Source: an uncultured Rhodopila sp. | GTDB lineage: Bacteria; Pseudomonadota; Alphaproteobacteria; Acetobacterales; Acetobacteraceae | DNA: 64,000 bases | Reading direction: 5' to 3' | Assembly: GCA_903851415.1 (NCBI GenBank) | Contig: CAINOE010000051.1 | Coordinates: forward strand, 40,387-104,386 | Part shown: piece after piece, positions 7,541 through 15,729 of the stretch | How the letters are laid out: every line of letters starts with the position of its first letter | Numbering within the stretch: the stretch's first letter is position 1 | The notes under the pieces: model-generated | The model's database searches: none | Seen by the model: only the letters and a program-made list of their open reading frames with translations | Told to the model about the DNA's origin: nothing | Made by a program: the position numbers and the translations under genes

Positions 7541-7792
7541 ATGGCACTCAGTATCAAAACCACCGAAGCCGACGGCCTGGCACGCAGCCTCGCCCGGCTC
7601 ACCGGAGAAACCATGACGGAAGCCGTCACCATCGCCCTGCGGGAGCGTCTCGGCCGCGAGCAATCCCGGCGTCACGCCGCCCCGGACGTGCGCGCCCGCG
7701 TTGCGGCCCTGGCCGAACGCATGCGCGCCGACTACGACACGCGGCCGATCGGCAAGGCCGAATGGGACGCTGCGTCCGGAGACGAGGGCTAG
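7541..7792 (+). CDS. vapB: VapB-type antitoxin (PSK transcription factor family)
   Basis: 83 residues. The start [20 protein letters not shown] and the segment [16 protein letters not shown] match the family in which an N-terminal swapped-hairpin or RHH-like domain binds DNA and the acidic C-terminal tail neutralises VapC. The gene is 4 nt upstream of vapC. A palindrome directly upstream probably serves as the operator. Family assignment is solid; the partner is clear from the neighbour. Confidence 0.8.
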
Positions 7793-7796
7793 ACCC

Positions 7797-8210
7797 TTGA
7801 TCGTCGTCGATTCCTCGGCGGTCGTGGCGATCCTGTTCGGGGAACCCCCGGCGGAGGCGTTGTTGGATCGACTGCTGGCGGACCCGCAGCGCATCATGTC
7901 GGTGGCGTCGTATGTCGAAACCGGGACGGTCCTCGCCGGACGGCAGCGCCGCGACCGGATGCGGGCGATCGACGATCTCGACAGCTTTCTCGACACGACC
8001 GGCATCGTTCTCGCCCCGGTGGACGAGTACCAGGCGCGGCTGGCCGTGCGCGCTCGGATACGGTTCGGCCGCGGCGTGGGCAACGGCGGCGTCCTGAACT
8101 TCGGCGATACGTTTTCCTACGCCCTTGCCCAAACGCACACCGCGCCGCTGCTGTTTATCGGCGACGATTTCGGCATCACGGACGTGATCCCGGCGATGCC
8201 GCCGGGCTGA
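7797..8210 (+). CDS. vapC: VapC-type PIN-domain ribonuclease toxin
   Basis: 137 residues starting at TTG 7797, chosen because translation from there gives the canonical MIVVDSSAVVAIL start and because GACGAGGG lies at ribosome-site distance. PIN acidic residues: VVDSSA, SYVETG and NFGDTFSYALA. A site-specific RNase is expected. The stop codon directly abuts the stop of the convergent NDUFA9-like gene, forming a shared TGATCA. It is a second PIN module in the window, unlike the one at 3.2 kb in sequence. Confidence 0.85.
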   Translation: MIVVDSSAVVAILFGEPPAEALLDRLLADPQRIMSVASYVETGTVLAGRQRRDRMRAIDDLDSFLDTTGIVLAPVDEYQARLAVRARIRFGRGVGNGGVLNFGDTFSYALAQTHTAPLLFIGDDFGITDVIPAMPPG

Positions 8211-9173
8211 TCACCCCTCCAGCGGCGATGGCGCCATCGGCCGCTTGCCGCCGCCCGGCTGGAAGCGGCTGAGATAGGCCGGCACCACCAGCTCCACCGG
8301 CGTCGGCGTCAGCCCCAGGTCGCCCAGCCCGAGCGCCCCGTCCGCCACCACATTGTCCCGCTGCAGCATAAGCAACTGGTCCGGCGTCAGCGGCTTGCCC
8401 GGCACATATTGCATAATGTTCGCCTGGAATCGCGCAATCCCCATCGGAATATCCACCAGCCTGCGGTTCCGCCTGGTCTGCTTCAGGATATAGGCGAGAA
8501 TCTCGCGGAACGTCCAAACCCGCGGGCCGCCAAGTTCATAGGTCCTGCCCGAGGCCGCCTGCGACGCCAGCGCCGCCATCACCGCGTCGGCGACATCGCA
8601 CACATAAACCGGCTGCATCCTCGTCTCGCCGCAGATCACCGGCATGATCGGCGACAGCCGGGCGATCTCGGCGAAGCGGTTGAAGAACTTGTCCTCCAGC
8701 CCGAACACCAGCGATGGCCGCAGGATCGTCGCGGAGGGGAACGCCCCCAGCACCGCCTGCTCCGCCGCGCCCTTGGATGCGCCATACGCACTCGGGCTGC
8801 CGGTATCGGCGCCGATGGCGGAGATCTGCACGAACCGGCCGGCACCGCCCGAAGCGGCGATGCGGGCGATCCGCGCGGCGCCCTCGGTGTGGATGGCCTG
8901 GAACGTCGCCGAACCGCTCTCCGACAGGATGCCCACGGCGTTGACAACCACATCGGCACCATCGGCCGCGCGGCGAACAGTGCCCTCGTTGGTCACCGAG
9001 GCGAACAGCGGCACGATCTGGCCGACATCGCCCATCGGCTTGAGAAACAATGCCGCCTCCGGATCGCGCACCGCGACCCGTACGATATAGCCCTGCTGGG
9101 CCAGCCGCTTGACCACATAGCGGCCGACGAACCCCGAGCCGCCGAAAATCGTTGCCACGCGCCGAGTCGCCAT
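8211..9173 (-). CDS. NAD(P)-binding complex I NDUFA9 subunit family protein
   Basis: 320 residues of an atypical SDR/NAD-epimerase fold. The N-terminal GGSGFVGRYVVKRL is the nucleotide-binding Rossmann motif; NAVGIL and the YGASK motif (Tyr and Lys of the SDR site) follow. The 'MQPVYVCDVADAV' stretch and the C-terminal TPDQLLMLQRDNVV are typical for alphaproteobacterial relatives of the complex I accessory subunit NDUFA9. In bacteria the role is not settled: quinone/coenzyme Q-related or complex I assembly has been suggested. Monocistronic and convergent with vapC. Confidence 0.85.
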   Translation of the reverse strand: MATRRVATIFGGSGFVGRYVVKRLAQQGYIVRVAVRDPEAALFLKPMGDVGQIVPLFASVTNEGTVRRAADGADVVVNAVGILSESGSATFQAIHTEGAARIARIAASGGAGRFVQISAIGADTGSPSAYGASKGAAEQAVLGAFPSATILRPSLVFGLEDKFFNRFAEIARLSPIMPVICGETRMQPVYVCDVADAVMAALASQAASGRTYELGGPRVWTFREILAYILKQTRRNRRLVDIPMGIARFQANIMQYVPGKPLTPDQLLMLQRDNVVADGALGLGDLGLTPTPVELVVPAYLSRFQPGGGKRPMAPSPLEG

Positions 9174-12179: not shown

Positions 12180-12347
12180 CTACTTGATCTTGGCTTCCTT
12201 GAACGGGACATGCTTGCGGACGACCGGGTCGTACTTGTTCAGCTCCAGCTTATTGGTCTGGGCGCGCGCGTTCTTTTTGGTCACGTAAAAAAATCCGGTA
12301 TCCGCCGTGGATACCAGCTTGATCTGCACAGTGTTCGACTTGGCCAT
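12180..12347 (-). CDS. rpmG: 50S ribosomal protein L33, cysteine-free form
   Basis: 55 residues on the minus strand: begins [20 protein letters not shown], continues with TKKNAR and ends [10 protein letters not shown]. This is a full-length L33. None of the four zinc-binding cysteines of the alternative form is present, so ribosome binding would not depend on zinc. The gene lies tail to tail with pleD, with the two stops only a few nucleotides apart, so there is no room for a terminator between them. Confidence 0.95.
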
Positions 12348-12509: not shown

Positions 12510-13442
12510 TCACACGACCCGATGCAACAGCGCCGCCCCCTCCGCGGCCCGCCGGCAGTTCTCCGCCGCGAGGGCAAAGCTGCGGTCGAAGGTGCCGGTG
12601 GTCAGCCAGCCGATATGCGGGGTCACCACGACGTTCGGCAAGGCCAGCAAACGGTCCCCCGCCGCGACGGGTTCGGTGTCGAATACATCCAGCCCGGCAC
12701 CGGCGAGGCGCCCCGACTCCAGGGCCTGTATCAGCGCCGGCTGATCCACCAGGCCGCCACGGGCGGTGTTGATCAGGATGGCGCCCGGCTTCATCCGGGA
12801 CAACGCGGCCGCATCGACCATCCGGCGCGTCTCCGGTGTCAGCGGCAGGTGCAGGCTGACAATGTCCGCCTCCGCCAGCAACCGAACCAAAGGCAGATAC
12901 CCGGCGATCGCATCCGCCACCGGGTTCCGGGCGGAATACACCACCGTGCATCCCATCGCTGCCAGCATCGGCGCCAGGATCTTCGGGATCGCGCCGAAGC
13001 CGATCAGGCCGACGGCGCGGCCGCCGAGTTCGCTGATCCCGTCCTGCAAGGCGGCATCCGTCCACGTTCCCGCCCGCAGCCGGCGATCGAACGCCGGAAT
13101 GCGCCGGAGCACCGACAGCATCAGCCCGAGGGTCAGTTCCGCCACCGCCCGGGCGTTGGTTCCGGGCAGATTGCAGACCGGGATGCCGCGCTGTTTCGCC
13201 GCCGCCAGGTCGATTGTGTTCACGCCGGCGCCGATCTTCTGGATCAGCTTCAGGCGGGGGGCGGCAGCGATCATGCCGGCGGTGCAGGGCTGCAGCACAT
13301 GCCAAAGCACGTCGCAGTCCGGCAGCAGGCGGTTCAGCGTTTCGGTGTCGTCTTCCCGGCAGACCGATATTCCAAGTCCCTCCAGCCGCGCCAGCCGTGC
13401 GGCCAGGTCAGGCCCGGCGGAGGCATGGTAGACGACATTCAT
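12510..13442 (-). CDS. D-2-hydroxyacid dehydrogenase, last gene of kinase/enolase-like operon
   Basis: 310 residues. NAD-binding motif GLIGFGAIPK (146-154) follows a typical substrate domain. The catalytic trio is intact: Arg228 in INTARGG, Glu257 in DVFDTEP, His276 in VVTPHIGW. Family enzymes reduce 2-oxoacids to D-2-hydroxyacids, or oxidise phosphoglycerate in SerA-like members; there is no ACT domain here. The ATG at 13442 overlaps the enolase-like stop as ATGA, so translation is coupled. The substrate is presumably the product of the enolase-like enzyme upstream, which is an inference from gene order. Confidence 0.85.
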   Translation of the reverse strand: MNVVYHASAGPDLAARLARLEGLGISVCREDDTETLNRLLPDCDVLWHVLQPCTAGMIAAAPRLKLIQKIGAGVNTIDLAAAKQRGIPVCNLPGTNARAVAELTLGLMLSVLRRIPAFDRRLRAGTWTDAALQDGISELGGRAVGLIGFGAIPKILAPMLAAMGCTVVYSARNPVADAIAGYLPLVRLLAEADIVSLHLPLTPETRRMVDAAALSRMKPGAILINTARGGLVDQPALIQALESGRLAGAGLDVFDTEPVAAGDRLLALPNVVVTPHIGWLTTGTFDRSFALAAENCRRAAEGAALLHRVV

Positions 13443-14728
13443 GCCGGCGACCGTCCCAGCACCGAACCGCCGGCGAAGCGGGCCTTGCCGCCGAGGGCTT
13501 CCTCGATCCGCAGCATCTCGTTCCACTTCGCCATGCGCTCGCCGCGGGCGAAGCTGCCGACCTTGAGCTGCCCCGCACCCCAGCCGACGGCGAGGTGGGC
13601 GATGGTGACGTCCTCGGTTTCCCCCGACCGGGCGGAGACGATGGTGGCATAGCCGCATTCCTTGGCGACCCGCAGCGCATCGAGCGTCTCGGTCAGGGTG
13701 CCGCGCTGGTTGGGCTTCAGCAGCACCGCGTTGGCCGCCCCCTTCTCCGCCGCATCCCGCAGCCGATCGGCGTCGGTGACGAGGAAGTCGTCGCCGACGA
13801 TCTGGATGGTGGAACCGAGGGCGCGGGTGATGCCCACGAAGCCGCCGGTGTCGTCCTCGGCCAGCGGGTCCTCGACCGACAGGATCGGGTAGCGGGACAC
13901 CCAGCCGGACAGCAGGGCGATCATCTCCTCGCTGGACAGATCCTTATGGTCCAGCGCCAGGGTGTAGCGGCCGTTGCCGCCGAACTGCGAGGCGGCGACG
14001 TCGAGCGCAATGCCGATCTGCTCGCCGGGACGGAAGCCGGCTTTTTCGATGGCTGCAACCAGGGTGTCGAGCGCCTGCTCGTTCGAGTCGAACATCGGCC
14101 ACCAGCCGCCTTCGTCGGCGACGCCGCGCCGGGTGCCGGCCTCCTGCATCAGAAGGCCGGCGGCGCGATAGATTTCCGCGGTCCAGTCCAGCGCCTGCGC
14201 GAAGCTCTCCGCGGCCGGGCATATGACCATGAAGTCCTGGATGTCCACCCGGCGGCCGGCATGGGCGCCGCCGCCGAAGATCTGGATCTGCGGCAGCGGC
14301 ACCAGCGCCGCATCGGAGCCGCCGAGGTGGTGATACAGCGGCTCCCCGGCCACGGCGGCGGCGGCGTGGGCGGCGGCCATCGACACCGCCAGGGTGGCGT
14401 TGGCGCCCAGCCTGGTCTTGTTGCGGGTGCCGTCCAGCTCGATCAGCCGCTCGTCCAGCGCTTCCTGGTCCGCGGCGTCAAAGCCGGCCAGGGCGCGGGC
14501 GATGATGGTGTTGACGTTGGCCACGGCCCGGCGGACGTCGTAGCCGCCGAACGCCGTCCCGCCGTCGCGCAGGTCGAGCGCCTCATTCGACCCGGTGGAG
14601 GCGCCGGCCGGCGCGATGGCGCGGCCCACCGCACCGCCTTCCAGCAGCACGTCGGCCTGCACCGTCGGGCGGCCGCGGCTGTCCCAGACGCGGCGGGCGT
14701 GAACATAGGCGATCCGCGTGTCCGTCAT
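13439..14728 (-). CDS. Enolase-family protein with altered active site
   Basis: 429 residues, normal enolase length, and clearly of the enolase family: WDSRGRPTVQ, PAGASTGS, VADEGG (Glu206, general acid), Asp243, Glu286 and Asp313 (Mg ligands), Lys338 and Lys389 (general base side). Departures from the canonical enzyme are notable: SHRSGETED is SARSGETED (Ala366 instead of the conserved His), DIQEF is DIQDF (Asp165), TGSRE is TGSNE, and KFNQIG is KPNQRG. Phosphate-binding Arg367-Ser368 remain. It probably dehydrates a phosphorylated acid other than 2-phosphoglycerate. Starts within TGATG at the kinase stop. Glycolytic enolase cannot be excluded without knowing whether a second copy exists. 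Confidence 0.85.
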   Translation of the reverse strand: MTDTRIAYVHARRVWDSRGRPTVQADVLLEGGAVGRAIAPAGASTGSNEALDLRDGGTAFGGYDVRRAVANVNTIIARALAGFDAADQEALDERLIELDGTRNKTRLGANATLAVSMAAAHAAAAVAGEPLYHHLGGSDAALVPLPQIQIFGGGAHAGRRVDIQDFMVICPAAESFAQALDWTAEIYRAAGLLMQEAGTRRGVADEGGWWPMFDSNEQALDTLVAAIEKAGFRPGEQIGIALDVAASQFGGNGRYTLALDHKDLSSEEMIALLSGWVSRYPILSVEDPLAEDDTGGFVGITRALGSTIQIVGDDFLVTDADRLRDAAEKGAANAVLLKPNQRGTLTETLDALRVAKECGYATIVSARSGETEDVTIAHLAVGWGAGQLKVGSFARGERMAKWNEMLRIEEALGGKARFAGGSVLGRSPA

Positions 14729-15729
14729 CAGGCGATCTCCTCGTGCCAGGCGCGCGCCACATCGGTCAGGCAATCGGGTTGATCCGCGAGCAGCCGCCGG
14801 GCGGCCTTGCGGACCCGCTCGCGATCCGGGTCCGTTGTAATGTACTCGACCGGCGACTTGCCATCCACCCGTGCGAGGAACAGCGCCGGGAGAAGATGCG
14901 CGGCGCGGGCCTCCAGCGCGGCCCGCGGTTCCCAGGTGACGCGGTGGAGATAGGCTGGCGTCATCGCCTGGAAGCACTCCAGCAGCGCGGCCCGCCGGGC
15001 CGGGACCCAGAGGCATTTCAGCAGCAGATGGTTCAGGCAGAAGGCCAGGTCGAAGGCCGGATCGCCCCACCAGGCGCACTCGGCGTCGAGGAACACCGGC
15101 CCGTCCGGCCCGCACAGGATGTTCTTCGGGCTGACGTCGCCATGCACCAGAGCGCGCCTGTTCGCCAAGGTCGTCTCGGTCAGCGCCTGCATCCGTCCCG
15201 CCAGGTCCGGGTGCGCGCGGCCGGTATGCGTCAGGTAGGGCTCCAGCCGGATGTCGTGGAAGATTTGGTCGGTTGGGAAGTCCGCGGCCAGCGAAGGACG
15301 GGCTGCCGTCGCGGCATGGATGCGGACCAGGGCGGCAGCGACCGCGGCGGCGAAGGCCGGCTCAACCAGACCCTCCCGCAGTCTCGATTTCCACAGGGGA
15401 TATCGATCGGCTGGCAGATACTCCATCGCCAGGACACCGGTGGTCCCATCCTGGCCGAGCAAGGCGGGCGCGGCGCCCGGCAGGGCCTTATTCGCGACCC
15501 GCATCCAACGGGCCTCATACAGGTTGCGCTCCACCGGGGCCCGCCAGTCGGCGTTTACCCGCAGCTTCGGCAGCGCCCGCTTGACGCATATCGGCCCTGC
15601 CGGCAGGTCGATCCGCCAGATGTCGGACGACACGCCTCCGGCCAGAGGCTCGCCGGACGGCGCGGCGCCGTGCAGAAGCCTCATGCGGTCCAATGCGGCC
15701 AGGATATCGGCGGGGAGCGGTTGCCTCAT
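14728..15729 (-). CDS. APH/choline-kinase-fold phosphotransferase
   Basis: 333 residues of the PF01636-type kinase fold. Lys50 (CVKRAL) is the ATP-anchoring lysine; the catalytic loop is HGDVSPKN (His197-Asn203, Asp199 catalytic), and Asp215 in FLDAECAWWGDPAFD binds Mg. The family phosphorylates small hydroxyl compounds such as aminoglycosides, choline, methylthioribose and homoserine. Here it is the first of three overlapping genes and probably makes the phosphorylated substrate of the enolase-like protein. No antibiotic-resistance specificity should be inferred. The operon is divergent from the TonB-like gene, with about 110 bp between them. Confidence 0.8.
   Translation of the reverse strand: MRQPLPADILAALDRMRLLHGAAPSGEPLAGGVSSDIWRIDLPAGPICVKRALPKLRVNADWRAPVERNLYEARWMRVANKALPGAAPALLGQDGTTGVLAMEYLPADRYPLWKSRLREGLVEPAFAAAVAAALVRIHAATAARPSLAADFPTDQIFHDIRLEPYLTHTGRAHPDLAGRMQALTETTLANRRALVHGDVSPKNILCGPDGPVFLDAECAWWGDPAFDLAFCLNHLLLKCLWVPARRAALLECFQAMTPAYLHRVTWEPRAALEARAAHLLPALFLARVDGKSPVEYITTDPDRERVRKAARRLLADQPDCLTDVARAWHEEIA

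Follow-up and report, generated by a model that had tools for sequence, protein, structure and literature searches.

What does an enolase do when its gene is joined end to end with that of a small-molecule kinase? The question is raised by a 64,000-nucleotide (nt) stretch of DNA from an uncultured Rhodopila sp. (assembly GCA_903851415.1, contig CAINOE010000051.1, positions 40,387 to 104,386), here called the window. On its minus strand lie three overlapping open reading frames (ORFs), read in the order of an APH-fold kinase (KIN), an enolase-family protein (ENO) and a D-isomer-specific 2-hydroxyacid dehydrogenase (DH). A preliminary description had taken the three for a dedicated, non-glycolytic route in which an acid is phosphorylated, dehydrated and then reduced; the coordinates, overlaps of 1 and 4 nt and gene descriptions that it gave agree with the ORFs and Pfam matches. 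We find that KIN and ENO are conserved as a pair, beyond chance, that ENO is not a housekeeping enolase, and that the system probably uses chemistry of the enolase subgroup, in an altered pocket and with a kinase as its new partner. The features of the locus, in window positions, are as follows.

14728..15729, minus strand: KIN, APH-fold small-molecule kinase, 333 amino acids (ORF, Pfam and NCBIfam scores)
14726..14730, minus strand: TGATG, overlap of the KIN stop and ENO start, 1 nt common (read from the sequence)
13439..14728, minus strand: ENO, enolase-family protein, 429 amino acids (ORF, Pfam and NCBIfam, residue alignment, AlphaFold model)
14234..14236, minus strand: codon of ENO D165, equivalent to Glu168 of canonical enolase (sequence and alignment)
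13631..13633, minus strand: codon of ENO A366, equivalent to His373 of canonical enolase (sequence and alignment)
13439..13442, minus strand: ATGA, overlap of the ENO stop and DH start, 4 nt common (read from the sequence)
12510..13442, minus strand: DH, D-isomer-specific 2-hydroxyacid dehydrogenase, 310 amino acids (ORF, Pfam and NCBIfam)

A conserved kinase-enolase pair

We assembled 135 kinase loci (46 genome loci, 8 plasmid records, 80 named genome loci and the window), which became 131 when four near-duplicates were dropped. The 80 named loci are the best 80 of 559 relatives, and the set leans toward kinases close to that of Paracoccus. In 39 of the 131 loci the sequence extends less than 6 kb to one or both sides. 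ENO is present in 124 loci, lies within 6 kb of KIN in 122, and in 104 is encoded on the same strand with a gap of less than 100 nt. The pair occurs in Alpha-, Beta- and Gammaproteobacteria and in Actinomycetota. Among the seven loci without ENO, the contig of four (L148, L149, L165, L175) runs out within 3.2 kb to one side or both, and in a fifth (L061, genome G228) ENO is on a separate contig with its signature residues present (L189); the remaining two, L064 (G153) and L171, have no ENO in the available stretch. Beside the pair, the window's DH subfamily is found in 23 of the 131 loci. The members are sometimes apart in relatives, as in Rhizobium, where ENO sits 4-8 kb from KIN, and in G228, but both KIN and ENO are still there.

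Co-occurrence was also scored at the level of genomes. In a class sample of 289, matches to the window ENO (P0001) above 450 bits were found in 23 of 25 kinase genomes and in none of the 264 others (Fisher p = 5e-32), and the next match, at 441.6 bits, is a canonical enolase (L186). The two kinase genomes below 450 bits are G153 and G229; the latter has an adjacent ENO that is 47% identical yet bears the signature (L067), and the 450-bit cut would miss divergent proteins of this kind.

A lone enolase would have spoken for a plain glycolytic role. The source genome (7.09 Mb in 215 contigs, completeness 99.5, contamination 6.2) instead encodes three, of which the two others carry the canonical active-site letters and the window ENO does not. 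Searches for the kinase gave 47 genomes (18 of 150 from the order, at E 1e-20; 25 of 289 from the class and 7 of 299 from the phylum, both at E 1e-25; the source genome and G171 counted once), and at least two enolases are found in 45 of them, the exceptions being G153, which has no variant, and G402, which is 63% complete. G113, of the same genus and without a kinase match, has one enolase. Because canonical enolases accompany ENO in the source genome and a further enolase is so regularly present elsewhere, the argument from a sole enolase fails.

KIN itself matches the APH family (PF01636) at 63.3 bits against a gathering cut-off of 23.2, and it has no match to PF13660 (DUF4147), the family of GckA-type glycerate 2-kinases. 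Kinases of the APH type carry a catalytic HxDxxxxN motif followed by a metal-binding D; the catalytic H, D and N and the subsequent D are invariant among 13 kinases, and HGD, SPKN and LDAEC mark columns that are more than 90% conserved across 47 aligned kinases. The nearest curated model is S-methyl-5-thioribose (methylthioribose) kinase, TIGR01767, which is also among the closest solved relatives, but KIN scores 50.5 bits against its cut-off of 275. A role in methionine salvage was rejected on this score; no methionine-salvage genes were seen when the neighbor lists were read by eye, a reading made with no dedicated search.

Individual loci show further arrangements. On an Enterobacter chuandaensis plasmid (NZ_CP097174.1; L097:7193-9918) the kinase is distant (38%), and the enolase-like protein, annotated as hypothetical, is divergent (35%) and has Gly373 and Lys211. 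The two genes are divergently transcribed and adjoin a run of enzyme genes resembling a biosynthetic cluster. In a record titled Oceanobacillus (L139), ENO follows a kinase that shares 59% identity with that of Paracoccus, possibly through contamination or transfer.

Active-site residues of the kinase-linked enolases

ENO is recognized by Enolase_N (166.5 bits), Enolase_C (301.8 bits) and the phosphopyruvate hydratase model TIGR01060 (511.4 bits, passing the cut-off of 300). Its counterpart in the cultured species Rhodopila globiformis shares 86% identity with it. We compared 118 non-redundant kinase-linked enolases with 27 non-linked ones, all of at least 380 residues and split by kinase linkage. 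The outlier L097 counts among the linked proteins, as does L189, which a kinase genome carries on a separate contig; the non-linked set comprises 20 proteins picked from matches below 450 bits and 7 control stretches. Residue 168 (yeast numbering throughout) is Asp in all 118 linked proteins and Glu in all 27 others. The linked and non-linked sets differ likewise at position 373 (Ala 114, Gly 4 versus His 26, Glu 1), position 155 (Gly 112, Ser 6 versus Asn 27), position 397 (Val 113, Ile 5 versus Thr 27), position 209 (Ala 117, Cys 1 versus Gly 27) and position 215 (Trp 112, Ser 6 versus Ala 27). The replacements at E168, H373, N155 and T397, which in the window ENO are D165, A366, G152 and V390, are by smaller or less polar residues. 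All 118 linked proteins retain S39, H159, the base K345, R374, S375, K396 and the metal ligands D246, E295 and D320, and 117 retain the acid E211, which is Lys in L097.

The same division appears when the enolase matches are read without this selection. Among 129 matches from the kinase loci and 7 control stretches (in the same or other genomes), 118 combine D168 with A373, 4 have D168 with G373, 6 have the canonical E168 and H373, and one (L194) has Glu at both. The four with G373 are three Devosia proteins (L159, L160, L177) and L097, the sole kinase-linked enolases read with Gly at this position. Phylogenetically the kinase-linked enolases form one clade (121 versus 27 sequences, FastTree local support 1.0), the tree set having been divided by residue 168, which coincides with kinase linkage. 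ENO thus has the domain layout and the base, metal, phosphate and lid residues of phosphopyruvate hydratase, whereas E168D, H373A/G, N155G/S, T397V/I, G209A and A215W/S, and its place in a clade of its own that is linked to a kinase gene, set it apart. The fold is predicted to be intact: an AlphaFold model built with 18 aligned sequences (predicted local distance difference test score, pLDDT, 89.1; predicted template modeling score, pTM, 0.91) overlays the best-ranked solved enolases, including 2-phosphoglycerate complexes, with TM-scores of about 0.93-0.96.

Work on canonical enolases indicates what these positions do. E211 is the acid that assists departure of the hydroxide (PMC4450660). In the Mycobacterium tuberculosis enzyme, whose Glu163 we matched to E168 by its QEFM motif and whose His154 is the counterpart of H159, Glu163 contacts the substrate carboxylate and His154 the hydroxyl of 2-phosphoglycerate, and Glu163 with Glu204 (the E211 counterpart) is assigned the terminal-carbon step (PMC10619443). 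Ala at Glu163 and at three other residues gives a non-functional enzyme, and S42A keeps about 5% of activity; the portion of that report available to us describes no Asp substitution at Glu163 (PMC10619443). The pocket is therefore changed at a functional place, because Ala at the E168 counterpart abolishes function and E211 is the leaving-group acid. Since base, acid, metal and phosphate residues are retained, proton abstraction, phosphate binding and elimination should still be possible. We take H373 to lie on the leaving-group side of the pocket, and E168 and H373 presumably line the C3 side; from these residues we infer that the substrate of ENO differs from the canonical one, most likely at C3.

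Two other roles could be read from the same residues. ENO lacks E168 and H373 but keeps the lysine base, and it might therefore epimerize or racemize a 2-phospho acid at C2 (L- to D-2-phosphoglycerate, say) and so supply the canonical enolase; KIN would then act on the L-acid. A dehydrogenase homologous to a short-chain dehydrogenase/reductase (SDR) of some KIN loci also takes L-2-keto-3-deoxygalactonate, cleavage of which would give L-glycerate (PMC11199699). The retention of E211 in 117 of 118 proteins speaks against such a role, which we consider decidedly improbable. The reductase families that partner KIN, moreover, usually form D-2-hydroxy acids. That ENO is instead a degenerate or regulatory paralogue, next to DH by accident, would suit the absence of DH from view in most loci, but the conservation of catalytic lysines and of metal and phosphate ligands through a deep clade, and the near-perfect co-occurrence with KIN, make this scarcely credible.

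Order of the steps and nature of the acid

DH has both domains of its family (PF00389, 2-Hacid_dh, 94.6 bits; PF02826, 2-Hacid_dh_C, 196.4 bits) and fits no substrate-specific NCBIfam model, the best score being 206 bits against a cut-off of 448 and none of 21 listed models reaching its cut-off. It is the looser member of the trio. Reductases of three lineages lie near KIN in 40 of the 131 loci: the window DH subfamily (P0003-type) in 23, a CtBP-like D-2-hydroxyacid dehydrogenase in 11 and a ketopantoate-reductase-family protein in 6 (in L168 with 253.8 bits, cut-off 141). None of the three occurs in the other 91, of which 32 have less than 6 kb on a side. Where a reductase is present, its gene precedes KIN in Rhizobium, Streptomyces and most loci of the ketopantoate-reductase type; in five loci the ketopantoate-reductase gene is at most 66 nt upstream of KIN on the same strand.

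The dedicated route of the preliminary description gains from the KIN-ENO pairing, the separate canonical enolases and the active site altered in 118 of 118 linked proteins; its order of steps is doubtful. In that order KIN would phosphorylate a 2,3-dihydroxy acid, ENO would dehydrate it to an enol phosphate, the phosphate would be lost and DH would reduce the 2-oxo acid. The window's own gene order is as such a sequence would have it, and smaller pocket side chains could admit a longer sugar acid. No phosphatase gene, however, lies within the three-gene run, the reductase gene stands before KIN in the groups just named, and most loci show no reductase of the three kinds; we regard phosphorylation first as improbable.

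A second class of loci supplies a different neighbor. An FAH-family protein near 2,4-diketo-3-deoxyrhamnonate hydrolase, scoring 351.9, below the NCBIfam cut-off of 500, is encoded in 24 of the 131 loci, 18 of which also encode a BDH2-like SDR. Across the 131 loci, this rhamnonate-type FAH and a reductase of the three kinds are never found together. Among the 92 loci that reach 6 kb in both directions, 33 have a reductase alone, 23 have FAH alone, 36 have neither and none has both (Fisher p = 7e-6). The sugar-type loci (for example L132, L125, L112 and L096) run in the order KIN, ENO, FAH, SDR, often with an IlvD/Edd dehydratase whose best solved relative is galactonate dehydratase, a second SDR whose best solved relative is BDH2, a LacI regulator and a sugar ABC transporter whose binding protein is nearest to solved sugar ABC binding proteins, among them a glucose-binding protein. 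Marine Rhodobacterales with such a locus include Cognatishimia maritima (L103) and Pelagimonas varians (L112). A bacterial BDH2 homologue is a 2-keto-3-deoxyfuconate 4-dehydrogenase that also accepts L-2-keto-3-deoxygalactonate (L-KDGal) and D-2-keto-3-deoxygluconate (D-KDGlu) (PMC11199699). Such a route would cleave an oxidized hexose to yield pyruvate plus a C3 acid of the glycerate type. Homologues of the 4-dehydrogenase, hydrolase and sugar-acid dehydratase link Rhodobacterales-type loci to the non-phosphorylating L-fucose/L-rhamnose pathway (FucF/FucG, LRA5/LRA6). These loci differ from it in that their FAH falls under the model cut-off and in having KIN and ENO as well, for which a pathway that ends in lactate would have no use.

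In Rhizobium, PEP (phosphoenolpyruvate) carboxylase (1133 bits, cut-off 815), reductase and kinase genes form one run in that order; PEP carboxylase is within 6 kb of KIN in five non-redundant loci. Because PEP carboxylase precedes reductase and kinase there, the end product may be of the PEP type.

Taken together, the reductase/FAH pattern and gene order fit reduction first, short of proof. DH would turn a 2-oxo acid into a D-2-hydroxy acid, whose 2-hydroxyl KIN would phosphorylate to give a 2-phospho acid; from this ENO would eliminate the C3 substituent, leaving a PEP-type product. Marine alphaproteobacteria would free this D-2-hydroxy acid from an oxidized hexose with the sugar-acid dehydratase, SDR and FAH hydrolase, and would need no reductase because the hydrolase releases the acid. 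The common denominator would be a D-2-hydroxy acid, obtained by reduction or by hydrolysis and phosphorylated on the way to a PEP-type product. Since the ENO pocket is remodeled, we favor a relative of glycerate with a different C3 end over D-glycerate itself, a plausible reading that we hold tentatively.

The closest familiar scheme is the serine-cycle stretch of hydroxypyruvate reductase, GckA, enolase and PEP carboxylase, which leads from hydroxypyruvate through D-glycerate and 2-phosphoglycerate to PEP (PMC6417678). The reaction types predicted for the trio and the PEP carboxylase of Rhizobium resemble it. They differ in that KIN is of the APH fold rather than DUF4147, ENO is an altered paralogue, and most KIN host genomes also have a DUF4147 kinase and another enolase. 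The likeness suggests an ordinary second route from D-glycerate to PEP, with DH as hydroxypyruvate reductase, KIN as a non-homologous glycerate 2-kinase and ENO as a true enolase whose changes tune its kinetics. Gene order and neighbors match the serine-cycle set (PMC6417678), import of a glucose-type sugar and hydrolysis of a 2,4-diketo acid would together yield D-glycerate, and the base, metal and phosphate residues of ENO are in place. The DUF4147 glycerate 2-kinase is missing from 7 of the 47 kinase genomes but present in the other 40, including the source genome (a separate PF13660 kinase at C185), and PF02595 occurs in 3 of 48 genomes searched; D-glycerate is thus probably already served in most kinase genomes. 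Of the 47, moreover, 45 have a further enolase. Nor would a plain enolase be expected to have E168D in 118 of 118 cases and His373 in none, when Ala at the E168 counterpart kills the canonical enzyme, although the accessible text reports no Asp change there (PMC10619443). The neighbors point to D-glycerate; the altered pocket and existing glycerate 2-kinases point away from it, and we judge the D-glycerate route rather unlikely.

Several points weigh against our preferred module on a glycerate relative. The C4-C6 half of a hexose, D-type reductases and PEP carboxylase all fit plain D-glycerate, which needs no special enolase. The adjacency of PEP carboxylase is essentially confined to one genus. 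The exclusion between reductase and FAH is confounded by phylogeny, in two actinobacterial loci a reductase is accompanied by another FAH, HpaG-like and outside the count, and 67 of the 131 loci have neither a reductase nor the rhamnonate-type FAH. E168 and H373 presumably line the C3 side, but the E168 counterpart touches the carboxylate (PMC10619443), and the remodeling of the pocket may therefore extend beyond C3, a point that slightly lowers our confidence. Finally, G153 has a KIN (50%) with a sole, canonical enolase (L188) and no variant ENO.

A broader version of the module is possible, if more speculative: the clade may be a new branch of true enolases with changed C3 chemistry and a dedicated APH-fold kinase, carrying out a phosphorylation-primed beta-elimination. 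Such a system would convert 3-substituted lactates or longer glycerate relatives to PEP-type products at no net ATP cost and could be a central funnel for many unrelated catabolic pathways.

Sulfolactate, from which sulfite would be eliminated, was also considered, as SDR, dehydratase and DH would fit. It was dropped as a lead, the pocket being less polar rather than more basic; a sulfite-exporter-like gene was recognized, by eye and with no dedicated search, only in L156, about 2 kb past ENO on the other strand.

Significance and further neighbors

Enolase is commonly regarded as a single-reaction enzyme, and in four annotated plasmid records the kinase-linked protein is named eno, phosphopyruvate hydratase. 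With a second clade so widespread, changed in its active-site residues and coupled to a kinase, the enzyme is probably misnamed in many genomes, and these may also possess a route into PEP that has not been described. A search of the open-access subset of PubMed Central turned up no description of the pair, a weak negative that leaves subscription papers uncovered. The pair is short and can be assayed directly.

A separate kinase-enolase association is seen in genome G201 (L194, G201:C16:24000-30000), whose third enolase has Glu373 with the canonical Glu168 and is directly adjoined by a DUF4147 glycerate-kinase match, possibly an independent pairing. Aromatic-type neighbors in Rhizobium and Actinomycetota (HpaD-like dioxygenase, HpaG-like FAH, cupin, CMD) indicate no particular substrate. 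Pyruvate kinase near the pair in two loci (L170, L178), on the opposite strand, was judged to be at chance level and was not used. Sulfatase-like genes, named by eye, lie near the pair in L065, L085, L114 and L140, in L085 with one between ENO and KIN. In L156 (positions 7565-8839), a Xanthobacteraceae metagenome-assembled genome, a gene for a glutamate/leucine-type amino acid dehydrogenase stops 2 nt before the called kinase start. In the window, a short ORF at 12180-12347 on the minus strand, downstream of the trio, resembles ribosomal protein L33 (rpmG), as judged by eye only. Among the high-ranking homologues in the protein searches, the named ones came from ‘uncultured Rhodopila sp.’ and Rhodopila globiformis.

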